Of a stretch of DNA of 12,531 nucleotides, positions 3,713 to 12,531 are shown piece by piece. The DNA comes from Actinomycetes bacterium. GTDB lineage: Bacteria > Actinomycetota > CALGFH01. The number at the start of each line of letters is the position of its first letter. The first letter of the stretch is position 1. The notes under the pieces were generated by a model, which searched no databases, was not told the origin of the DNA, and was given only the letters and a program-made list of their open reading frames with translations. The stretch spans positions 1 to 12,531 of the forward strand of contig JASLIH010000188.1 of NCBI GenBank assembly GCA_030152105.1, read 5' to 3'. The position numbers and the translations under genes were made by a program.

Positions 3713-4477
3713 ATGAGCAGCAGCGAGGCGCCGAAGGTGGCGGTGGTGACCGGAGCCGGGAGCGGTATCGGGGCCGCGGTAGCGCACGCCCTGGCCGGCG
3801 ACGGCTGGGTCGTGGTGCTGGCCGGCCGGCGGCCTGACGCCCTGGCGTCGGTCGCCCAGCAGGGTGCCCGGCTGCCCGGGGTGCTCGACCCGGTACCGGC
3901 CGACGTCACCGACGAGGCGTCGGTGCGGGCGCTGTTCGACCGGGCGGTGGAGCGGCATCGCCGCGTGGATCTCCTCTTCAACAACGCCGGCACCGGCGCG
4001 CCGGCCCGCGAGCTGGACACGGTCCCCCTCGCCGAGTGGGACGCCGTGGTGGCGGTGAACCTGACCGGGGCGTTCCTCTGCACCCGGGAGGCGTTCCGGG
4101 TGATGCGCCACCAGCGGCCCCGCGGCGGCCGGATCATCAACAACGGCTCGATCTCGGCCCATGTCCCCCGGCCCGGGTCGGTCGCCTACACCGCCACCAA
4201 GCACGCGATCACCGGGCTGACAAAGTCGACGTCGCTGGACGGGCGGGCCCACGACATCGCCTGCGGGCAGATCGACATCGGCAACGCCGCCACCGACCTG
4301 ACCGAGCCCATGGCGACCGGCGTGCCCCAGGCCGACGGCAGCGTCCGGCCCGAACCGAGGATGGACGTGGCCGACGTGGCCCGGGCCGTGTGCTACATGG
4401 CCGGGCTGCCCCTGGACGCCAACGTCGCCACCATGACCGTCATGGCGACCAAGATGCCGTTCGTGGGGCGTGGCTAG
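3713..4477 (+). CDS. Short-chain dehydrogenase/reductase (SDR), 254 aa
   Basis: A classical SDR oxidoreductase using NAD(P)(H). The Rossmann glycine motif TGAGSGIG is at residues 13-20, an arginine pair after the second strand (R39-R40) hints at NADP preference, NNAG is at 90-93, and the catalytic triad is S146, Y159 and K163 (AYTATK). Length is typical. GGGGAGG at 3702-3708 lies 4 nt before ATG 3713, which sets the start; the longer upstream frame is not used. It is divergent from the SMP-30 lactonase, suggesting an alcohol/aldose dehydrogenase plus lactonase pair, but the substrate is not visible. The C-terminus ([11 protein letters not shown]) is of a kind seen in SDRs of unknown specificity. 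Its TAG stop overlaps the stop of the convergent gene. Confidence 0.9.
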
Positions 4478-4737
4478 CGTCCTGCATCTCCCCTGCCGGC
4501 TCGGGTAGGGTCCCGCCGCCGCCCGAGCGCGAAGTAGGAGATTGGCAGGATCCCGGCGGAGCTGACGACGGCCACGACCGCGGCCCAGATCCACTTCGGC
4601 CCTCGGATCTGGCTTGCCGGCCGGCGCTTGATGTCGACCAGGGCGGCAACCTTCAGGATGCCTTCGGCAACTGCCGCGGTGATGAGCAGTCCGCGGGTGC
4701 GCGGGCTGAGATCGCTCCACTGTCTTCTGGCAGCCAT
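4474..4737 (-). CDS. PLDc_N domain small membrane protein (87 aa)
   Basis: A small two-helix membrane protein resembling the phospholipase D/cardiolipin-synthase N-terminal domain (PF13396) without any catalytic PLD part. The pattern is helix 1 at ~17-34 ([18 protein letters not shown]), a loop [17 protein letters not shown] at 35-51, helix 2 at ~52-66, and the characteristic end ISYFALGRR at 66-74. Stand-alone PLDc_N proteins are common in Actinobacteria and their role is unknown. ATG 4737 is chosen because GGAGG at 4743-4747 lies 5 nt upstream; the GTG at 4752 would put that site inside the coding region. The stop overlaps that of the convergent SDR gene at CTAG 4474-4477. Confidence 0.78.
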
Positions 4738-4742
4738 GACAT

Positions 4743-4747
4743 CCTCC
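4743..4747 (-). promoter_or_regulatory. Ribosome-binding site selecting the PLDc_N start
   Basis: GGAGG on the minus strand ends 5 nt before ATG 4737, ruling in favour of this start over the GTG 15 bp upstream. Confidence 0.6.
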
Positions 4748-4776
4748 GCCACCGGCAGGGACAGCTGATGGCCTGC

Positions 4777-4782
4777 ACCTTA
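4777..4782 (-). promoter_or_regulatory. Possible -10 element for the PLDc_N gene
   Basis: TAAGGT on the minus strand, 39 nt upstream of ATG 4737, fits TANNNT. No convincing -35 hexamer is seen at normal spacing, so this is weak. Confidence 0.22.
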
Positions 4783-4803
4783 CATCGCGACCCCAACGGC
4801 CGC

Positions 4804-5224
4804 TCAGGGTTCTGGGCGTCCGGTGAAGCTCCACTGCAACTGCTCGGCGGCCTTGCGGGCGAGCGCCGGGTCCTCACCGAACAGCGGCGACGCGTTCGGG
4901 TCGTTCAGGAACGGCTTGAGCTGCCGCAGCGCCTGGGCCGAGATGGGCCGGCGCTGGTCCAGGAGTGCGGCGTTGATGGCCGCCAGCTCCGCATGGCAGG
5001 CCAGGGACGACCTGGGTGCGCAGCATCAGGGGCGCCTCCCAGTCCGGGTGCCGGAACTGCCGACCGTCTGGCCGGTACCCGGCTGCCGCCAGCAGCCGCT
5101 CCACCGACCGGGCCCAGCCACGCCGACGCCGCATGCTGGGCAGGACGCCGATCGTGATGGCCTCGGTTGCAGGGGGTCTGCGGCCGGTCAGCGCGTGGAG
5201 AACCCGCTGCAGGCTGGCTCGCAT
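4804..5224 (-). pseudogene. Unrecognised gene interrupted by a frameshift (~139 codons)
   Basis: The reading begins at ATG 5224, 6 nt after an excellent AAGGAG (5231-5236): MRASLQRVLHALTGRRPP, then RRRRGWARSVERLLAAAGYR and FRHPDWEAPLMLRTQVVPGL. Coding character then leaves this frame near 4994-5010 and continues in another minus frame with HAELAAINAALLDQRRPISA, LRQLKPFLNDPNASPLFGED and ARKAAEQLQWSF, ending at TGA 4804-4806. The downstream part is clearly native protein (NPF-rich, helical), whereas the first frame degenerates into Gly/Pro/Ala/Arg sequence. One extra base, or loss of two or five bases in the repetitive GGCAGGCCAGG stretch, would explain it. No family is recognised. No membrane segment or signal peptide is visible, so the intact protein would be a small soluble one. 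A sequencing indel is possible, but there is no long homopolymer. Confidence 0.6.
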
Positions 5225-5230
5225 CGCAAG

Positions 5231-5236
5231 CTCCTT
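5231..5236 (-). promoter_or_regulatory. Ribosome-binding site for the frameshifted gene
   Basis: AAGGAG on the minus strand, 6 nt from ATG 5224. It shows the gene start is intact and that the longer upstream frame is not used. Confidence 0.65.
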
Positions 5237-5317
5237 GTCCGCCAGTGATCTGTGACTGTTGGGCCCGTTTGACCGGGGCAGCACCCAGCGGCGGTCAGAA
5301 CAGGCCGCGGGTGGACG

Positions 5318-5713
5318 TCAGGCGGTAGGGTGCGGGGGCGCTCGAGCTGGCAGCCGCACCGACCAGCTGCGCCTCCACAGGCGTGCCGGGCCCACCGCCG
5401 GCGCACGTCGCGCTTGCGCCCAGTAGACGCCGCCCAGCAGCGGGACCACCAGCAGGCTGAGCAGCAGGATCGGCCGTGGGCGCGGCCCGGGGGCCTCGAC
5501 TGGCGGCCGCGGCACCGGACCGGCCGGCTGCAGGGCACCCGGCTCGATCCCGAGCTGGACCAGGCTGGGGGTCACACGGTTGGCTGGAGTCCCGGCCGCC
5601 GGCGCGACCAGGGCGCCCGCCGACAGCGACACCAGCGTCGCGGCAAGCATCACCAGGGTCCTGATGAACTGCGGCCGCCCGCTCCCCCCATAGTCGGGGG
5701 ACCCATAGCGCAT
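5318..5713 (-). CDS. Small secreted/membrane protein with signal peptide, possibly frameshifted
   Basis: No family is recognised. Visible parts: a signal-peptide-like segment at about residues 17-41 (FIRTLVMLAATLVSLSAGAL, then APAAG), a short Pro-rich extracellular region (TPSLVQLGIEPGALQ), and a C-terminal membrane helix (PILLLSLLVVPLLGGVYWAQ) followed by Arg. This resembles a small bitopic exported protein. After VYWAQARR the open frame becomes Arg/Trp-rich and stops at 5318. A different minus frame continues with native-looking GGGPGTPVEAQLVGAAASSS and YRLTSTRGLF up to TGA 5295-5297, so a one-base loss around 5385-5420 is suspected. The start is uncertain: ATG 5713 gives a normal n-region, ATG 5800 would give a 29-residue extension, and none has a strong ribosome-binding site. 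Confidence 0.4.
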   Translation of the reverse strand: MRYGSPDYGGSGRPQFIRTLVMLAATLVSLSAGALVAPAAGTPANRVTPSLVQLGIEPGALQPAGPVPRPPVEAPGPRPRPILLLSLLVVPLLGGVYWAQARRAPAVGPARLWRRSWSVRLPARAPPHPTA

Positions 5714-5889
5714 CCAGCGAACCACGCCAAGGAACTGGCCGCCCGCGGTCGAGCCCGATGAGGGCGCAGTGAGAGCTCCCCGCGCGGGGTCCCAACTCAT
5801 CCGGCGCTCACGCTCGCCGCCGTAGGACGGTGCCAGGAGGACCGGCGCCGCGGGGAGCCGCCGCCGTCATGGCGACACCCCCGCCGCCC

Positions 5890-5936
5890 CGCCACACCGT
5901 GGCGACGCCTCCCGCCGCCACCCGGCCAACAGCCGG
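5890..5936 (-). terminator. Two GC-rich hairpins downstream of the envelope operon
   Basis: The 5801-5989 gap shows no convincing gene. It contains CGCCAC-ACC-GTGGCG (5890-5904, 6-bp stem, 3-nt loop) and CCGGC-CAACA-GCCGG (5922-5936, 5-bp stem, 5-nt loop), both beyond the rhomboid-like stop. There is no U-tract, as is common in high-GC genomes, so terminator function is only plausible. Confidence 0.3.
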
Positions 5937-5989
5937 ATCCGAATGGCCGGCACGTTCGGGGTGCTGCGCCTCACCCTCCAGCCTGGCGG

Positions 5990-6703
5990 CTACCGGTGGC
6001 GTTTCGCCCACGCCGCCGGAGCCCCGTTCACCGACCACGGCAGCGGGACCTGCCACTGAGCTCGAGCCGTGGGAGGACCCGGGGGCCGGTGCCGCGAGAA
6101 GACCAGGGCCAGGGCCACCCCGATGGGGACCGCGAGCAGGTGCTCGGCCGTGGCCAGGTCGGGAGCGACAACGACGTCGACGGCCAGCCCGGCTGCCAGC
6201 ACGGCGGCCACCGGCAGCGACCGGGTCGCAACGGCCAGGGCGGCGGCCGCAGTGACCACCACCGCCGAGGTCCCGACGTCGAGCACGGCCAGCCCCTGCC
6301 CGGCCCTGCCGCTGGCCAGCCAGCACAGGTCGACCAGGGCGGTGGGGAGGGCATGGCCGACGGCGCCGAGGGCGAGCAGCCGCCGGCTGCCGATGGCCGT
6401 CTCCAGCGGCCCGAGCACCAGCCAGGTGGCGGCCACCGTCCAGACCGCCTCGACCGGCCGCCGGATCAGGAAGGCGCTCCCCAGCAAGGGGAGCAGCGGG
6501 CCTCGGGGCAGGTCGGTGGCCCGCCAGGCGCAGCAGGAGGCCACCACCCGGTGCCCGCCCGCCGGGTCGTGCCACAGGGCGCTCACGACGAGCGTCGCGA
6601 GCAGGAACGAGACCGAGGCGGGGGCCGTGGCGAGCAGGCCGTTGCCGGCGACCGCGGTCAGGAACGGACGCTGGTAGGCCATCACCCGGCCGGCGATGAT
6701 CAT
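5990..6703 (-). CDS. Rhomboid-like membrane protein (237 aa)
   Basis: A polytopic membrane protein with about six hydrophobic segments, resembling the actinobacterial rhomboid-like family (putative intramembrane serine proteases). A Gly-x-Ser in LDVGTSAVVV gives candidate nucleophile S146, and the last membrane segment has EHLLAVPIGVALALV with candidate base H188. GAVGHALPTALVDL (H117) before the serine helix also fits. The classic GxSG and WR motifs are not present, so proteolytic activity is uncertain. ATG 6703 overlaps the PBP stop (ATGA at 6700-6703), implying translational coupling; an internal ATG (MAYQRPF) would also be possible. It is the last gene of the regulator-kinase-PBP operon, so a role in envelope maintenance, such as cleaving or chaperoning a membrane partner, is inferred. 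Confidence 0.65.
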   Translation of the reverse strand: MIIAGRVMAYQRPFLTAVAGNGLLATAPASVSFLLATLVVSALWHDPAGGHRVVASCCAWRATDLPRGPLLPLLGSAFLIRRPVEAVWTVAATWLVLGPLETAIGSRRLLALGAVGHALPTALVDLCWLASGRAGQGLAVLDVGTSAVVVTAAAALAVATRSLPVAAVLAAGLAVDVVVAPDLATAEHLLAVPIGVALALVFSRHRPPGPPTARAQWQVPLPWSVNGAPAAWAKRHR

Positions 6704-8634
6704 CCGTGCTGGTGGCGCGGTGGCGCGGCCAGGGCGGCGGCCATGTAGTCGTGGAAGATGAGGGCGGGGAAGGTGCCGCCGTAGACGGGGCCGCCATTGA
6801 ACTGGTCGGCCATCGGGGTCTGCCTGAGCGGGTCGCCGACCCAGACCGAGGTGGCCAGCTGGGGGGTGAAGCCGGTGAACCAGGCGTCGGCGAAGCTGGT
6901 GGTGGTGCCGGTCTTGCCGGCCACGGGCCGGCCGATGGCGGCCCGGAAGCCGGTCCCGCCCGGCCCCACGACCCCGCGCAGGATGTCGACGGCGGCCGCC
7001 GCCACCTGTGGGTCGAGGACCCGGCGGCAGGAGGGCCGCCCGTCGTACAGGACCCGGCCGGTCGGGCCGGTGATCCGGGTGATGGTGGCCGGCTGGCAGT
7101 GGATCCCGCCGGCGGCCAGGGTGGCATAGGCGCTTGCCAGCTCCAGCGGGGTCACGTTCTCGGTGCCGAGGACCAGTGAGCAGTAGTCGCGCAGCGGCGA
7201 GGTGATCCCCATGCGCCGGGCCATCCGGATCGCGTTGGCGGTCCCGACCCGCACCATCAGCTGGGCGAAGTAGGTGTTGACGGACTCGGCGGTGGCCTGG
7301 GCCAGGGCGATGCGGCCGGGCGAGGCCGGCTCGGCGTTGTGGACGCTGTAGCCGGCCGGGCAGGCCGGCGCCGTCACCGTGGTCGGCGAGGCGGTGTCGA
7401 AGCTGGTGCTGGCCGGGATGCCCTGCTCGAGGGCGGAGACCAGGTAGAAGACCTTGAACGAGGAGCCGGGCGGGAAGCCACCGCCTCCCTGACCGGTGGC
7501 CAGGTTCACCTTGGAGCTGGCGAAGTCGCGGCCGCCGACCATGGCCACCACCGCCCCGCTGGCCGGGTCGAGGCTGACCAGCGCGCCGCCGAGGCCGACG
7601 CCGGCCAACCGGCCGGTGACCGCCTGCTCGGCCAGGTGCTGGTCGGCGGGCGAGAGGGTGGTGGCAACCCGCAGGCCGCCCTCGAACACCGCCTGCCGCC
7701 GGGCCGCCGAGCCGGCCGGGCCGAGGGCTCGGTCGAGGGCGTGGTCGTCGAGCAGGGCGCGGGTGACGTCGTCGACGAAATAGGGGAAGTGGACCGCCTC
7801 GCGGTGCAGCCTTGGCCGCAGCGGCTGCCGCTTGGCCGCCGCGACCCGGGCCGGGCTGGCGAAGCCGACCGCCGCCATCCGGTCCAGGACCTGGTCGCGG
7901 CGGGCCCGGGCGACCGGGCCACCGGTCGGCCGGTACCGCTCGGGGTTGGCGATGGTGCCGGCCAGGGAGGCCGCCTGGGCCAGGGTGAGGCGCCCGACTG
8001 GCCGGGAGAAGTAGTGCTCGGAGGCGGCGGCGATCCCGTAGACCCCGTCGCCGAAGTAGACCCGGTTGAGGTAGGCGGCCAGGATCTGGTCCTTGCTCAG
8101 GTGCCGCTGGAGCTGGATGGCATCCAGCGCCTCGACCAGCTTGCGGTGCAGGCTGCGGCGGTCTCCGGTGACCACGTTCTTGACGTACTGCTGGGTGAGG
8201 TCGCTGCCTCCCTGGCGGATGTGGCCGCTGGTCACGTCGGCGACCGCCGCCCGGGCGATGCCGCGCAGGTCGAGGGCGCCGTGGGCGTAGAAGCGGGCGT
8301 CCTCGATCGCCAGGACGGCGTCGCGGACCGTCATCGGCACCGCCGACAGCGGGACCACCACCCGGTCCTGGTCGCCGTGGAGCACGGCCAGGACCGATCC
8401 GTCGGCGGCGCGGATGACCGAGCGGGCCGGCGGCGGGGCCAGCAGGCGGCCGAGCGGATGGGCGTCGCCACTGACCTCCAGGGCGGCGGCCGTGGCCATC
8501 CGAGCCGCCGGCAGCACCCCGGCCAGGGCCAGGCCGCTGAGGACCACGCTGGTCGCCACCAGCAGGAGGAGCAGCCGGGGCAGGGCCCGCCGGCTGACGG
8601 GGTGCGGTGGTTCCGGTGGATGGAACCCGCTCAT
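6700..8634 (-). CDS. Class A penicillin-binding protein (glycosyltransferase + transpeptidase), 644 aa
   Basis: A bifunctional peptidoglycan synthase acting on lipid II outside the membrane. A Pro-rich cytoplasmic tail precedes one anchor helix (residues ~18-41). The GT51 domain shows AIEDARFYAHGALD (E111, catalytic Glu), QGGSDLTQQ at 141-149 (usually QGGSTITQQ), RKLVEALDAIQLQ, LSKDQILAAYLN and VYFGDGVYGI. The transpeptidase domain shows SxxK at S391-K394 (PPGSSFK), SVN at 451-453 and KTG at 574-576 (AGKTGTTTSFADAWFTGF). All catalytic motifs are therefore intact. Four cysteines (C425, C485, C513, C536) lie in the extracellular transpeptidase domain and may form disulfides. There is no PASTA tail; the protein ends just after the transpeptidase domain. 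ATG 8634 overlaps the kinase stop (ATGA at 8631-8634) and its own stop overlaps the next start, so it is mid-operon and probably under the adjacent two-component system. Confidence 0.93.
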   Translation of the reverse strand: MSGFHPPEPPHPVSRRALPRLLLLLVATSVVLSGLALAGVLPAARMATAAALEVSGDAHPLGRLLAPPPARSVIRAADGSVLAVLHGDQDRVVVPLSAVPMTVRDAVLAIEDARFYAHGALDLRGIARAAVADVTSGHIRQGGSDLTQQYVKNVVTGDRRSLHRKLVEALDAIQLQRHLSKDQILAAYLNRVYFGDGVYGIAAASEHYFSRPVGRLTLAQAASLAGTIANPERYRPTGGPVARARRDQVLDRMAAVGFASPARVAAAKRQPLRPRLHREAVHFPYFVDDVTRALLDDHALDRALGPAGSAARRQAVFEGGLRVATTLSPADQHLAEQAVTGRLAGVGLGGALVSLDPASGAVVAMVGGRDFASSKVNLATGQGGGGFPPGSSFKVFYLVSALEQGIPASTSFDTASPTTVTAPACPAGYSVHNAEPASPGRIALAQATAESVNTYFAQLMVRVGTANAIRMARRMGITSPLRDYCSLVLGTENVTPLELASAYATLAAGGIHCQPATITRITGPTGRVLYDGRPSCRRVLDPQVAAAAVDILRGVVGPGGTGFRAAIGRPVAGKTGTTTSFADAWFTGFTPQLATSVWVGDPLRQTPMADQFNGGPVYGGTFPALIFHDYMAAALAAPPRHQHG

Positions 8635-10043
8635 CGCGCCCTCCGGGGGGCCTCGCCCGGCGGCTCGGCTGGCAGGGTCAGGGCAAAGGTGCACCCGGCG
8701 CCGGGAACACTTCTGACCGAGATGCGCCCGCCGTGCGCCTCGACCAGCTCCTTGCAGATCGCCAGGCCGAGCCCGCTGCCTCCGCGGGCTCTGGTCCTGG
8801 CCGCGTCCAGCCGGTAGAAGCGGTCGAACACCCTGGCGAGGTGCTCGGGGGCGATCCCGGGGCCGGTGTCGGTCACGGCCAGCCCGGGCCCGTCGGCGGT
8901 GTCCCAGACCCGGACCTGGACCGAGGCGCCCGGGCCGGCGTACTCGACCGCGTTGTCGACCAGGTTGGTGACCACCTGGGTGATGCGGGTGTGGTCGGCC
9001 ACGACCGGCGCCGACGAGGCATCCACGGTGAGCTGGACGCCCGCCTTCTCGGCGAGCGGGCGGAGCTGGGTGGCGACCTTGGTGGCGACCTCGCCCAGGT
9101 CGAAACGCTCCAGGAGCAGCTCCAGCCGGTTCTCGTCGCGGTGGGCCAGGGTGAGCAGGTCGTCGACGATCTTGCTCATCCTGGCCACCTCCTCGGCCGC
9201 GCTGTCCAGCACCTCGGAAGCCCCGGCGGCCGGGTCGTCGGCGCGGAGCGCCACCTCCAGCTCGGCCCGCATCACGGCCAGCGGCGTGCGCAGCTCGTGG
9301 GAGGCGTCGGCGACGAACCGGCGCTGCTCGGCCACGCCGTGCTCGATGCGGTCGAGCATGCCGTTGAGGGTGACGGCCAGGCGGGCCAGCTCGTCGGCGG
9401 CGTCGGGCACCGACACCCGGTCGTGCAGCCGGTTGGCGCCGATCGCCCCGGCCTGCTCGGCCATCCGGTCGACCGGCCGCAGCGCCGCCCTGGCCAGCAG
9501 CCACCCGCCCCCACCGGCCAGGACCAGCGCGATCGGGCCGGCCACGAGGAGAAGCAGGCGCAGCCGTTCAACCGACTTGTCGACCTCGGTCAGTGGGGCC
9601 GCGACCGCCAGCACCGTCCGCGGCGTCCGGCGCAGGCCGAGCACCCGGTAGCGCGTCCTGTCCGGTCCCGGGCGCATCTCGGCCCGCACCGGGTGGCCGT
9701 CCAGCACCTGCCGCACCATCGCCGGGGTGAGCAGGGACCGGGCCGGTACCCCGGTGCCGGCCCGGTCCTGGACCTGGCCGGCGGAGGACCGCAGCTGGGC
9801 GACGGTCGCGCCGCGGGACAGGCCGGCCAGGCTGTCCTCGGACAACCTGGCGGCGCCGCCGTCGGTGTCGGCCAGGACCCCGACCGCCTGGGCGTCGAGG
9901 CCCTTGTCGACCTCGGCGACCAGGTCGGCACGCAGGCGCAACAGTAGGAAAAAGGCGAGCGTGGCCAGGATCACCGCCAGCAGGGCCACGTACCAGGCCG
10001 TGAGGCGGGCCCGGACCGGGAGGCGGGCGAGCCAGCCAGCCAC
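8631..10043 (-). CDS. Sensor histidine kinase of a two-component system (470 aa)
   Basis: A membrane sensor kinase. TM1 is at ~16-35 (AWYVALLAVILATLAFFLLL), then an extracytoplasmic sensor region of about 125 residues without a recognised domain, TM2 at ~163-184, and a HAMP linker. HisKA follows with H249 in ASHELRTPL, then HATPase_c with the N box NLVDNAVEYA (N360, N364), G1 box DTGPGIAPEH (392-401), F box VFDRFYR and G2 box GGSGLGLAI (421-429). All catalytic boxes are present. The start is placed at GTG 10043, 4 bp after the regulator stop; the longer frame upstream only mirrors the regulator gene. The stop overlaps the PBP start. It should phosphorylate the adjacent regulator in response to an envelope signal; the signal itself is unknown. 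Confidence 0.92.
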   Translation of the reverse strand: MAGWLARLPVRARLTAWYVALLAVILATLAFFLLLRLRADLVAEVDKGLDAQAVGVLADTDGGAARLSEDSLAGLSRGATVAQLRSSAGQVQDRAGTGVPARSLLTPAMVRQVLDGHPVRAEMRPGPDRTRYRVLGLRRTPRTVLAVAAPLTEVDKSVERLRLLLLVAGPIALVLAGGGGWLLARAALRPVDRMAEQAGAIGANRLHDRVSVPDAADELARLAVTLNGMLDRIEHGVAEQRRFVADASHELRTPLAVMRAELEVALRADDPAAGASEVLDSAAEEVARMSKIVDDLLTLAHRDENRLELLLERFDLGEVATKVATQLRPLAEKAGVQLTVDASSAPVVADHTRITQVVTNLVDNAVEYAGPGASVQVRVWDTADGPGLAVTDTGPGIAPEHLARVFDRFYRLDAARTRARGGSGLGLAICKELVEAHGGRISVRSVPGAGCTFALTLPAEPPGEAPRRAR

Positions 10044-10047
10044 GCCG

Positions 10048-10719
10048 CTACGCCGGCTCGAGCCCGTAGCCGACGCCCCGGACGGTGCGGATGCACACCA
10101 GGCCGGGTGGCTGCTCGAGCTTGCGACGCAGGTAGCCGACGTAGACGTCGACCACGTTGGAGAGGCCGTCATAGTTGTAGTTCCAGACGTGCTCGAGGAT
10201 CTCGGTACGGCTCACCACCTGGCCGGGGCGGCGCATGAGGAACTCGAGCAGGGCGAACTCCCGGGCCGACAGCAGCACCGGCCGGCCCGACAGGCTCACG
10301 ACGTGGGCGGCCGGGTCCAGGACCAGCTCGCCGACGGTGAGGACGGCCGGCCGCTCGCGGGCTCCCCGTCGGACCAGGGCACGCAGGCGGGCCAGCAGCT
10401 CCCCGAACGCGAACGGTTTGACCAGGTAGTCGTCGGCGCCGACGTCCAGGCCGCTGATCCGGTCGGCCACCCGGTCGCGAGCGGTGAGCATGAGCACGGG
10501 CGCCCAGCGCCCGGCGAGGCGGAGCCGCCGGCAGACCTCGATGCCGTCCAGGCCCGGGAGCAGGATGTCGAGCACGATGGCGTCGTAGTCCCACTCGGTG
10601 GCCCGGTGCAGGCCGTCGTTGCCGTCGAGCGCGGCGTCGACCGCGTAGCCCTCCTGCTCGAGCCCACGCCGGATGGCCCGGGACATCTTGATCTCGTCCT
10701 CGACCAGCAGCACTCGCAT
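10048..10719 (-). CDS. OmpR/PhoB-family response regulator (223 aa)
   Basis: A DNA-binding response regulator. The receiver domain (1-~115) has the acidic pocket E7-D8, phospho-acceptor D51 in IVLDILLPG, T79 in MLTARD and K101 in LVKPF. The C-terminal winged helix (~125-220) shows LLSAREFALLEFLMRRPGQ, SRTEILEHVW, NVVDVYVGYLRRKLE and IRTVRGVGYGL, typical of the OmpR/PhoB class. GGGAGGAG at 10726-10733 selects ATG 10719 over ATG 10725, which would abut the site with no spacer. It is the first gene of the operon with the kinase, PBP and rhomboid-like protein, and divergent from the MprF-like gene. It likely binds the RTGAGA repeats between 10767 and 10819, controlling itself and probably the divergent gene. 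Confidence 0.94.
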   Translation of the reverse strand: MRVLLVEDEIKMSRAIRRGLEQEGYAVDAALDGNDGLHRATEWDYDAIVLDILLPGLDGIEVCRRLRLAGRWAPVLMLTARDRVADRISGLDVGADDYLVKPFAFGELLARLRALVRRGARERPAVLTVGELVLDPAAHVVSLSGRPVLLSAREFALLEFLMRRPGQVVSRTEILEHVWNYNYDGLSNVVDVYVGYLRRKLEQPPGLVCIRTVRGVGYGLEPA

Positions 10720-10725
10720 GCTCAT

Positions 10726-10733
10726 CTCCTCCC
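10726..10733 (-). promoter_or_regulatory. Ribosome-binding site selecting the regulator start
   Basis: GGGAGGAG on the minus strand is adjacent to ATG 10725 but 6 nt from ATG 10719, so 10719 is the better start. Confidence 0.65.
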
Positions 10734-10765
10734 TACCCATGGTCCACCAGCCCAGCCGATCTGGT

Positions 10766-10820
10766 GTGAGAGAACCATGAGAATGGCTGCCCGGCCCGGG
10801 CGATCTCACCCGGCTCTCAT
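10766..10820. promoter_or_regulatory. Mirror-symmetric RTGAGA operator in the divergent promoter
   Basis: TGAGA occurs at 10767-10771 and 10778-10782, and its complement TCTCA at 10804-10808 and 10815-10819. Each pair has an 11-bp period and the two pairs are mirror images about position 10793. With flanks, the four half-sites read GTGAGA, ATGAGA (plus) and ATGAGA, GTGAGA (minus), so the consensus is RTGAGA. Direct repeats with an 11-bp period are the binding mode of OmpR/PhoB-type regulators. Between the pairs lies a 13-bp palindrome, GCCCGG-C-CCGGGC (10789-10801). The element lies in the 150-bp gap between the regulator gene and the MprF-like gene, so it could serve both. No clear -10 hexamer was identified on either side. 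Confidence 0.6.
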
Positions 10821-10869
10821 CGAGCTCGCGGTAGAACTGTCCCGCTCCCGGAGGAGGAGGACCGGATCC

Positions 10870-12531
10870 ATGGTGGCCCGCGACACGACCGCGGTCCCGG
10901 CCGCCCGGGTCGACCCGGCGGCCGTGCATGGATCCGCGGCCGGGCGCGGCCGGGTGCGGCGTGCCTGGCCGGCCCCCCGGCTGGCCGCCGCCCTGGCCGC
11001 CCTGGCCGGCGTGCTCAACCTGCTGTCGGCGCTGCTGCCGGCAGAGGCCGACCGGCTGCGAGCCCTCGACGAGCTGGTCCCCGGAGCGGTGTCGGTGGGC
11101 GCCACCGCGGCCACCGCAGCCGCCGGGATCGGCCTGCTGCTGCTGGCCGGTGGGCTCCGGCGCCGCCAGCGGCTGGCCTGGCTGGCCACCGTGACGCTGC
11201 TGGGGGGCAGTGCCGTGCTCAACGTCGCCAAGGGCCTGGACGTGGAGGAGGCGCTGGTCGAGGCGTTCCTGGCCGGGTTGCTGGTCAGCCAGGCCGGCTG
11301 GTTCACCGCCCGGCCGGGGCCGCTGGAGCGCCGGGCGGCGCTCCGCCCGGCGCTGCTGGTCGTGCTGGCCACCGCCGGCTACTCGGCGCTCGGGTTGCTG
11401 GCCAACGCCGACGACGTGGCCGGGCCGATAACGGTGGCCCGGATCGCGGGTGAGACCGGCCGCATGGCGGTCGGGCTCGGCTCCGGCATCGCGTTTGACG
11501 GCCGCTTCGGCCGCGTCTTCCCCGCCTCGGTAGCGGCCGTCTTCTACCTCGGCGCGCTGGTGGTGGTGGTGCGCGCGCTCGCCCCGGCCCTGGTCCGGCC
11601 GGCTCGCGACCCCGGGCTGGCCGACGCCGTGGCCGCCTCCGGCGACTCGCTCGCCTACTTCGCCCTCCGCGACGACCGGATGAGCGTCCGAGACGGCGAT
11701 GCCCTGGTGTCGTGGGCGCCGGTCGGGGTGGTCGCCCTGGCCGCCGGTGACCCGCTCGGCCCGCCGGCCGGATGGCCGGGCGCGGTGGCCGCATTCCTGG
11801 CCGAGGCGGCCGCCCAGGGCCGGACCGCCGCCGCGCTCGGCTGCGGCGCCGCCGCCGCCCACACCTACCAGGCGGCCGGCCTCACCACCCTCTATCTGGG
11901 CGACGAGGCCGTCCTGGAGCTGGACCGGTTCACCCTCGAGGGCCGCGCGGTGCGGATCGCCCGCCAAAGCTGGCACCGGGCCCAGCGGGCCGGGCTCACC
12001 GCCACCGTCAGCCGGGTCGGCGGGCTGGACCCCGACGAGCTGGCCCGCCTCCGCGCCCTGGCCGCCCACTGGCCCGGCGGCACGCCCGAGCGGGGCTTCT
12101 CCATGGCCCTGGGGCGCCTGTTCGACCCCCGGGATGCCGCCGGGTTCCTGGTCGTCGGCCGCGACGCCGCCGGCCACCCCCTCGGCCTCCTCCACCTGGT
12201 CCCCTGGGACGGTGACGGGGCCAGCCTCGACGCCATGCGGCGCGACCGCGACGCCCCCACCATCCTCAACGACTTCCTGGTCGTCGAGGCGGCCAGGCAA
12301 CTGCCAGCACTCGGGATCCGGCGGCTGTCGCTCAACTTCTCGTTCCTCCGCGCCATCCTGGACGCCGGCCCCGACCTGGGACTGTCGTTGCGGGCCGCCC
12401 GCTGGGGACTACGCCAACTGTCACGCCGGTTCCCGATCCAGTCCCTCTACCAGTTCAACAAGAAGTTCGCCCCGGCCTGGCAACCCCGCTACCTGGCCGT
12501 GCAGACAGCCGAGGAGCTGGCCACCGTCGCC
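10870..12531 (+). CDS. MprF/LysX-like phosphatidylglycerol lysyltransferase (DUF2156), incomplete at the right edge
   Basis: One frame is open from ATG 10870 to the window end (554 codons, no stop). GGAGGAGGAGG at 10850-10860 lies 9 nt upstream. The N-terminal half is a membrane domain with about six hydrophobic segments (e.g. LAAALAALAGVLNLLSALL and VAAVFYLGALVVVVRAL). The C-terminal half is a DUF2156 (GNAT-like) domain: DSLAYFALRDDRMSV, VGVVALAAGDPLGPP, PERGFSMALGRLFD, NDFLVVEAAR, LSLNFSFLR near 487-495, and LYQFNKKFAPAWQPRYL at ~526-542. These features match the LysX/MprF transferase domain, which moves lysine (or alanine) from aminoacyl-tRNA to phosphatidylglycerol, reducing negative surface charge and sensitivity to cationic peptides. 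Mycobacterial LysX carries a fused lysyl-tRNA synthetase after this point; whether this protein does lies beyond the window. It is divergent from the two-component/PBP operon. Confidence 0.85.
   Translation, partial: MVARDTTAVPAARVDPAAVHGSAAGRGRVRRAWPAPRLAAALAALAGVLNLLSALLPAEADRLRALDELVPGAVSVGATAATAAAGIGLLLLAGGLRRRQRLAWLATVTLLGGSAVLNVAKGLDVEEALVEAFLAGLLVSQAGWFTARPGPLERRAALRPALLVVLATAGYSALGLLANADDVAGPITVARIAGETGRMAVGLGSGIAFDGRFGRVFPASVAAVFYLGALVVVVRALAPALVRPARDPGLADAVAASGDSLAYFALRDDRMSVRDGDALVSWAPVGVVALAAGDPLGPPAGWPGAVAAFLAEAAAQGRTAAALGCGAAAAHTYQAAGLTTLYLGDEAVLELDRFTLEGRAVRIARQSWHRAQRAGLTATVSRVGGLDPDELARLRALAAHWPGGTPERGFSMALGRLFDPRDAAGFLVVGRDAAGHPLGLLHLVPWDGDGASLDAMRRDRDAPTILNDFLVVEAARQLPALGIRRLSLNFSFLRAILDAGPDLGLSLRAARWGLRQLSRRFPIQSLYQFNKKFAPAWQPRYLAVQTAEELATVA

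Follow-up and report, generated by a model that had tools for sequence, protein, structure and literature searches.

The window, by which we mean the whole 12,531-bp stretch of DNA that we analyzed, contains a two-component operon on the minus strand and, divergent from it, a gene for an MprF-like protein that runs off the end. Four copies of a short repeat lie between them. The features are:

6709..8592, minus strand: class A PBP-like transglycosylase/transpeptidase, downstream of the kinase gene (Pfam; a 72% identical homologue lies in the cluster of genome G051)
8631..10043, minus strand: sensor histidine kinase with HAMP, HisKA and HATPase_c domains (Pfam); probable GTG start at 10043, judged from the sequence
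10048..10719, minus strand: OmpR-family response regulator (RR) of 223 amino acids, with PF00072 (Response_reg) and PF00486 (Trans_reg_C); the putative regulator of the element
10720-10869, no strand: intergenic region of 150 bp between the RR gene and the MprF-like gene
10749..10754, minus strand: candidate -10 of the RR operon, TGGGCT, 11 bp after the last half-site; weak, placed by homology, without an A at position 2
10766..10782, minus strand: putative RR-facing operator pair, which reads TTCTCAT-ggtt-CTCTCAC on the minus strand (exact match and relatives)
10766-10771, plus strand: GTGAGA half-site (exact match)
10777-10782, plus strand: ATGAGA half-site (exact match)
10783..10803, no strand: G+C-rich spacer of 21 bp between the two arms (from the sequence)
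10804..10820, plus strand: putative LPG-facing operator pair, TCTCAC-ccggc-TCTCAT (exact match and relatives)
10804-10809, plus strand: TCTCAC half-site (exact match)
10815-10820, plus strand: TCTCAT half-site (exact match)
10832..10837, plus strand: candidate -10 of the MprF-like gene, TAGAAC, 11 bp after the last half-site; placed by homology to 23 of 31 related loci, without the final T
10870..12531, plus strand: MprF-like lysylphosphatidylglycerol synthase (LPG_synthase_C; PF09924, E = 8.3e-67), which runs off the end of the window

Two minus-strand ORFs downstream of the PBP gene (5991-6703 and 5321-5800) have no Pfam match and are possibly in the same operon.

The first-pass annotation of this DNA had described the neighbors of the element as an OmpR-type RR, a kinase, and an MprF-like gene, and the Pfam domains agree. 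The RR gene, which adjoins the element, encodes both a receiver and a winged-helix domain. Its best 25 of 93 matches to NCBIfam models were all below the curated cut-off, with heavy-metal and RppA models first. By sequence, its nearest solved relatives are PhoP and PrrA of M. tuberculosis, and we found no named equivalent for it. The MprF-like protein matched the LysX/MprF models of NCBIfam, below their cut-offs. Among its best matches listed are metagenome relatives at 81-87% identity.

The geometry that the first-pass annotation had noticed also holds up: all four half-sites are exact in the TGAGA core, both pairs (RTGAGA-N5-RTGAGA) have a period of 11 bp, and the two pairs point outward from a single center at 10793, one toward the RR/kinase operon and the other toward the MprF-like gene. 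These two pairs are the only matches to RTGAGAN5RTGAGA without mismatches in the 12,531 bp. With up to 2 mismatches, there are 5 matches in the window, compared to a mean of 1.09 in shuffled sequences. TGAGA or TCTCA occurs 8 times in the entire window, and 4 of these 8 are within the element. It had also been argued that four matches with identical spacing are hard to obtain by chance, and indeed, when the 150-bp intergenic region was shuffled by dinucleotides 20,000 times, no shuffle gave mirrored TGAGA pairs. A mirrored pair of any 5-mer, with a period of 9-12, arose in 164 of 20,000 shuffles of the same region.

To see if the site is conserved, we examined the DNA upstream of related RR genes. 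Among 49 RR loci (42-78% identity), 21 have a pair of the relaxed motif YTCAB, compared to a mean of 0.65 in shuffled sequences; the relaxed motif was chosen on these same 49 loci. The exact TCTCA pair is found in 6 of the 49. Searching 396 Actinomycetota genomes for the RR, we obtained matches at E ≤ 1e-72 in 43 of them, and after scoring up to 7 candidates per genome, we had 24 new loci (57-78% identity). Within 200 bp upstream, 17 of these 24 have a YTCAB pair with an 11-bp period on either strand (16/24 on the RR-facing strand alone), and the other 7 lack the pair on both strands. At any other period from 7 to 16, at most 3 loci have a pair, and the backward control gave none. Shuffling gave a mean of 0.30 loci and a maximum of 2. 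The exact TCTCA pair, whose core is fixed by the window, is present in 9/24 loci (shuffle mean 0.01). In the window, the half-sites are head-to-tail direct repeats with an 11-bp period, and the relatives are enriched for such repeats at period 11 only.

Among the best 80 RR homologs listed, which come from many phyla, a relaxed pair with period 11 lies upstream of 6 (0-2 at other periods), and the exact TCTCA pair is upstream of 2. The six loci with the relaxed pair are from four Actinomycetota and two Chloroflexota. Some close relatives depart from the full arrangement: with RRs of at least 66% identity, G044, G211, G269, and G082 have RR-facing units only, and G158 and G305 have no intact pair.

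Two other kinds of repeats turned up near RR genes. In L157, L158, and L159, whose RRs are at 48-49% identity, three or four YTCA units stand in tandem upstream of the RR, 11 bp apart, and there is no mirror arm. By eye, a pair ATGAA-N6-ATGAA lies upstream of the RR and points away from it in L001/L217 (from a Rubrobacter MAG), L150, L151, L153, L173, and L174.

We aligned the 31 RR-facing pairs that we found among 74 RR regions (the window, the 49 loci, and the 24 loci; no duplicates were dropped). The consensus is CTCTCATC-N3-CTCTCAT, and its C/T flanks are conserved even though the search pattern did not force them. In 23 of the 31 loci, a -10-like hexamer follows the pair after 10-11 bp. 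The first base of the NANNNT pattern is base 11 after the pair in 12 loci and base 12 in 10, and in one locus both positions fit; any other offset accounts for at most 4 of the 31. The -10 element that follows a pho box lies at about this distance. On the RR side, the window is one of the 8/31 loci in which NANNNT starts at neither base 11 nor base 12, and no sigma-70 consensus promoter was detected in 10700-10900.

The mirrored arrangement recurs as well. A second pair that faces away from the RR is found within 60 bp in 11 of the 31 loci, including the window (0-2 at other periods), and inward-facing second pairs are found in 0/31. Among the closest relatives, those whose RRs reach 70% identity or above, there are 9 loci, and the mirrored pair is present in 6 (the window, G051, G104, G198, G232, and G046), or in 6 of the 8 that carry an RR-facing pair, counting the window in both cases. 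The non-mirrored loci in this group are G044 and G211, which have the RR-facing pair only, and G158, which has no intact pair. In the six mirrored loci with RRs at 71% identity or above (window included), 22 or 23 bp separate the 5-base cores of the two arms. In the other five mirrored loci, where RR identity is lower, the gap ranges from 3 to 53 bp. Two of the mirrored loci, L152 and L155, contain paralogs with TTCAG-type sites, and their outward arms are of the TTCAG type as well. This is what one would expect from a single protein reading both arms.

The exact four-copy pattern is rare. In its outward form, it occurs in 4 of 396 genomes, at one place each (G047, G051, G198, and G324), and the backward control gave 0. 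In its inward form, it occurs in 2 of 396 genomes, and with such small numbers, 4/396 versus 2/396 does not by itself prove a preference for one orientation. Three of the four outward hits are at a two-component operon or an MprF-like gene; in G324, a 159-amino-acid ORF lies between the four-copy element and the RR. The fourth hit, in G047 (L137:5557-5612), has no two-component genes among the neighbors that we scanned. It overlaps a 181-amino-acid ORF without a Pfam match and adjoins a DUF5997 gene. The two inward TCTCA/TGAGA elements (L242 from G387 and L243 from G236) share a similar 47-bp sequence. Their 16-base arms form a perfect palindrome in G236 (16/16) and a partial one in G387 (13/16); the G387 element is no more palindromic than the outward hit in G047.

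On the side of the MprF-like gene, 88 of the 396 Actinomycetota genomes have a match to the MprF-like protein, and the best are in G051 (65% identity), G336 (51%), and G067 (45%). Among 37 loci with MprF-like genes (L081-L117, mostly with 1.5 kb of upstream DNA), only G051 has the exact pair, and it has both arms in the mirrored arrangement. The four-copy pattern in G051 is at a single place in the genome, 9195-9245 of contig 31, and it is absent from both other genomes of the same class. On this contig, the MprF-like match is at 9480-11105, and the ortholog of the RR (78% identity) is at 4399-5061, about 4 kb from the element. As its divergent neighbor, the element has a gene for a DMFA2_C protein instead. 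Hence, the element goes with the MprF-like gene even where the gene order differs.

Contig 31 of G051 has other features of interest. It shows signs of carrying the two-component system twice (L118:1-1683 and 4399-6512): the start of the contig encodes an RR C-terminus that is 77% identical to the window's RR, along with two adjacent stretches that match the kinase, and the full RR-kinase pair follows some kb later. Upstream of the full RR gene (L118:4100-4399), several TGAGG- or TGAAG-like units, in steps of about 11 bp, face CCTCAT-N5-TCTCAT in an extended form of the mirror. Also, contig 68 contains a second DMFA2_C gene (L143:3197-4926) with TCTCAY-N5-TCTCAY just beyond its 3' end, so both of the DMFA2_C genes that we saw in G051 adjoin such a site.

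In other relatives, the divergent neighbor of the RR is a different envelope gene. As found with tblastn, five relatives (G104, G046, G232, G158, and G198) have a conserved lipoprotein at this position, followed by an ABC ATPase. The lipoproteins of the other four are 48-56% identical to the protein from G232, and the ABC ATPases are 68-75% identical over most of their length. Four of these five loci are mirrored. The MprF-like gene is in the cluster in the window and in G051, and the 72% identical PBP is common to both. In the loci that we compared, the MprF-like gene and the ABC transporter are not both found beside one system.

We also scanned for TCTCAYN5TCTCAY in 10 of the 11 genomes that have an RR at 66% identity or above (G082 was left out). 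We found 21 places in the 10 genomes, and none for the backward control. Ten of the 21 are at RR genes, two are at the MprF-like gene of G051, one is just after the kinase gene of G211, and eight are elsewhere. One of these eight, in G051, is upstream of a LytR-CpsA-Psr gene and is followed 11 bp later by TACAAC. Some of the places are near metabolic genes or overlap coding sequence, so probably not all of them are operators. The place after the G211 kinase gene (L201/L237, contig C153) also precedes a small ORF and a phosphoesterase gene.

The first-pass annotation had tied its reading of the element to conservation in orthologous intergenic regions. Among the closest RR orthologs, most keep the site upstream of their genes, often with the mirrored second pair, and so does the closest ortholog of the MprF-like gene that we found (in G051). 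The further proposal, that one regulator controls both divergent transcripts, is supported with two limits: in four mirrored relatives the divergent gene encodes the lipoprotein, and in no relative whose locus was read did we find the RR and MprF-like genes as divergent neighbors. We still infer the binding partner, now from the comparison of relatives and not from adjacency alone.

Given this comparison, the element is very likely a pair of operators that are read by this subfamily of RRs. We also think it probable that the two sites bind RR dimers back to back, and that they would autoactivate the RR-kinase operon and activate the divergent envelope gene. More specifically, each arm of the element would be a tandem head-to-tail site for a dimer of the adjacent OmpR-family RR. 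The phosphorylated RR would bind CTCTCATC-N3-CTCTCAT immediately before each -10 position and bring in RNA polymerase, as PhoB does at the pho box. Leftward, this would autoactivate the regulator-kinase(-PBP) operon; rightward, it would activate the MprF-like gene, so that the two genes would respond jointly. The system as a whole may be an envelope-stress module, as in four relatives the mirrored operator separates the RR from a divergent operon for a lipoprotein and an ABC transporter. From the types of targets, our guess is that the signal is cationic peptides or envelope stress.

Our preference for activation comes from the likeness to the E. coli pho box, with its CTGTCAT half-sites. Alternatively, the same RR might bind the same operator and repress one or both promoters, by negative autoregulation or because the arms are used exclusively. 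We consider this unlikely because the distance to the -10-like hexamer in 23/31 loci, together with a half-site that is near-identical to CTGTCAT, matches the geometry of the pho box as an activator site. On the other hand, geometry alone gives no sign, and the -10 candidates in the window are imperfect. Also, our sites would overlap with the -35 region, unlike the activating sites of CenR from Rhodobacter sphaeroides: those are reported to be co-directional and upstream of the -35, and CenR sites overlapping a promoter element reportedly repress (PMC9275681, in the portion available). We hold activation less firmly than the identity of the operator.

The RR itself varies with the type of half-site. 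We compared loci with T/C-type half-sites (19, including the window) to loci with G-type half-sites (TTCAG or CTCAG; 8), and left out four loci of mixed type. Residue 187 is serine in 19/19 of the T/C-type loci, and residue 191 is aspartate in 17/19. In the G-type loci, residue 187 is proline (7/8) or glycine (1/8), and residue 191 is glutamate in 8/8. Ser187 and Asp191 are presumably in, or at the start of, the recognition helix, given the fold of the family. This pattern fits with the half-site being read directly by the recognition helix, but the co-variation is confounded with phylogeny.

These residues also bear on whether the element is instead bound by a paralogous RR from this family, so that adjacency is misleading. 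Similar YTCAB pairs lie upstream of the genes for many paralogs (~48-63% identity), which implies that the half-sites are related across the RR family. However, all eight of the G-type loci differ from the window's RR at both positions, while the 19 T/C-type loci share Ser187. Furthermore, the four-copy element stays with orthologs of the RR or of the MprF-like gene in G198 and G051. We therefore view a paralogous regulator as quite improbable.

Chance, or a structural hairpin of RNA or DNA, is hardly credible given the shuffles (0/20,000) and the conservation in relatives, even though G+C-rich DNA readily forms inverted repeats and, of the two inward control hits, one is a perfect palindrome and the other a partial one. 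As for specific structures, we rejected a hairpin (RNA folding of the region gives z = -0.18, and the 6-base spacers of the two arms match at 1/6 positions) and an attenuator or terminator (there is no terminator-like site in 10700-10900). No Rfam family matched the window at its gathering threshold.

To return to two back-to-back operators for the adjacent RR, the spacing between the arms raises a further idea. In the closest mirrored orthologs, the gap stays at 22-23 bp, roughly two turns of the helix, while the spacer has changed over most of its sequence and the divergent gene has been exchanged. So, we speculate, with considerable doubt, that the mirror element might be a single bidirectional switch, in which two RR dimers contact each other and both divergent promoters are locked to a common on/off state. 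It would then be a portable cassette for different envelope genes. Either way, the nearly fixed mirrored spacing makes these loci a good test case for the co-regulation of divergent promoters.

More broadly, CTCTCATC-N3-CTCTCAT is a concrete and testable DNA code for a family of actinobacterial two-component systems. It ties this family to envelope genes (MprF-like, lipoprotein-ABC transporter, and LytR-CpsA-Psr). The code varies between paralogs (TCAT versus TCAG) along with recognition-helix residues, which may help to read the regulons of these RRs from sequence alone.

We did not find a published description of this element with a literature text search, in which the full-text matching of sequence letters was noisy. 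Among known operators, the closest in form is the pho box. In E. coli, PhoB binds head-to-tail half-sites (CTGTCAT) with an 11-bp period, the box ends about 10 bp upstream of the -10, and the gene for the RR is itself a target. The pairs that we describe share the 11-bp head-to-tail repeat and the orientation, with CTCTCAT instead of CTGTCAT, and the gene for the RR would likewise be a target. The distance to a -10-like hexamer is similar in 23 of the 31 loci, though in the window both hexamers are one position off. They differ from the pho box by one base of the half-site, by having another regulator and other targets, and by the presence of two mirrored pairs over one intergenic region.

We suspected that MprA-type regulators use TCTCAG repeats, for which the Corynebacterium MprA motif, as given in the available part of its source, provides no support. 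That motif is TKTTAAGAAM (PMC12113857), and the motif for CutR is TAWATAAA (PMC12802291). CutR and MprA are similar to our RR in that, according to these partial sources, they are two-component RRs of Actinomycetota with envelope or secretion roles. By eye, neither motif matches CTCTCATC-N3-CTCTCAT, so we rejected a CutR or MprA regulon.

CenR binds a direct repeat, TGA-N8-TGA, whose printed spacing is 11 bp from start to start (the text says 10; PMC9275681, seen in part). Each pair in our element contains TGA-N8-TGA, and autoregulation and envelope targets would be common to both systems. But our half-site is longer (CTCTCATC), its TGA reads against the direction of transcription, and the -10 is nearer to the pair. 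The mirrored pair is a feature of our element, and the portion of PMC9275681 that was available makes no mention of one for CenR.

Two other systems resemble ours in their targets. In Staphylococcus aureus, the cationic-peptide two-component system GraXRS-VraFG controls the mprF gene and an ABC transporter (PMC3128592, in the portion available). In our loci, the cluster of the two-component system has an MprF-like gene (in the window and G051) or a lipoprotein and ABC ATPase (in five other relatives). The same excerpt gives the GraR site as a palindrome, ACAAATTTGT, and reports that GraXRS does not autoregulate. In contrast, our element consists of direct repeats of CTCTCATC upstream of the RR gene itself, and it does not have the palindromic ACAAATTTGT form.

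In Streptomyces coelicolor, the targets of CseBC-sigma E include MprF, PBPs, and a LytR-CpsA-Psr protein (PMC6767563, in part), and we see the same kinds of genes here. As described in that excerpt, mprF is a target of sigma E and is reached by an indirect route, whereas a putative RR site is directly at the MprF-like gene in the window. Judging from its sequence, the putative operator is of the OmpR/PhoB direct-repeat kind, and the nearly fixed-gap mirror that is common to two promoters is what makes it distinctive.
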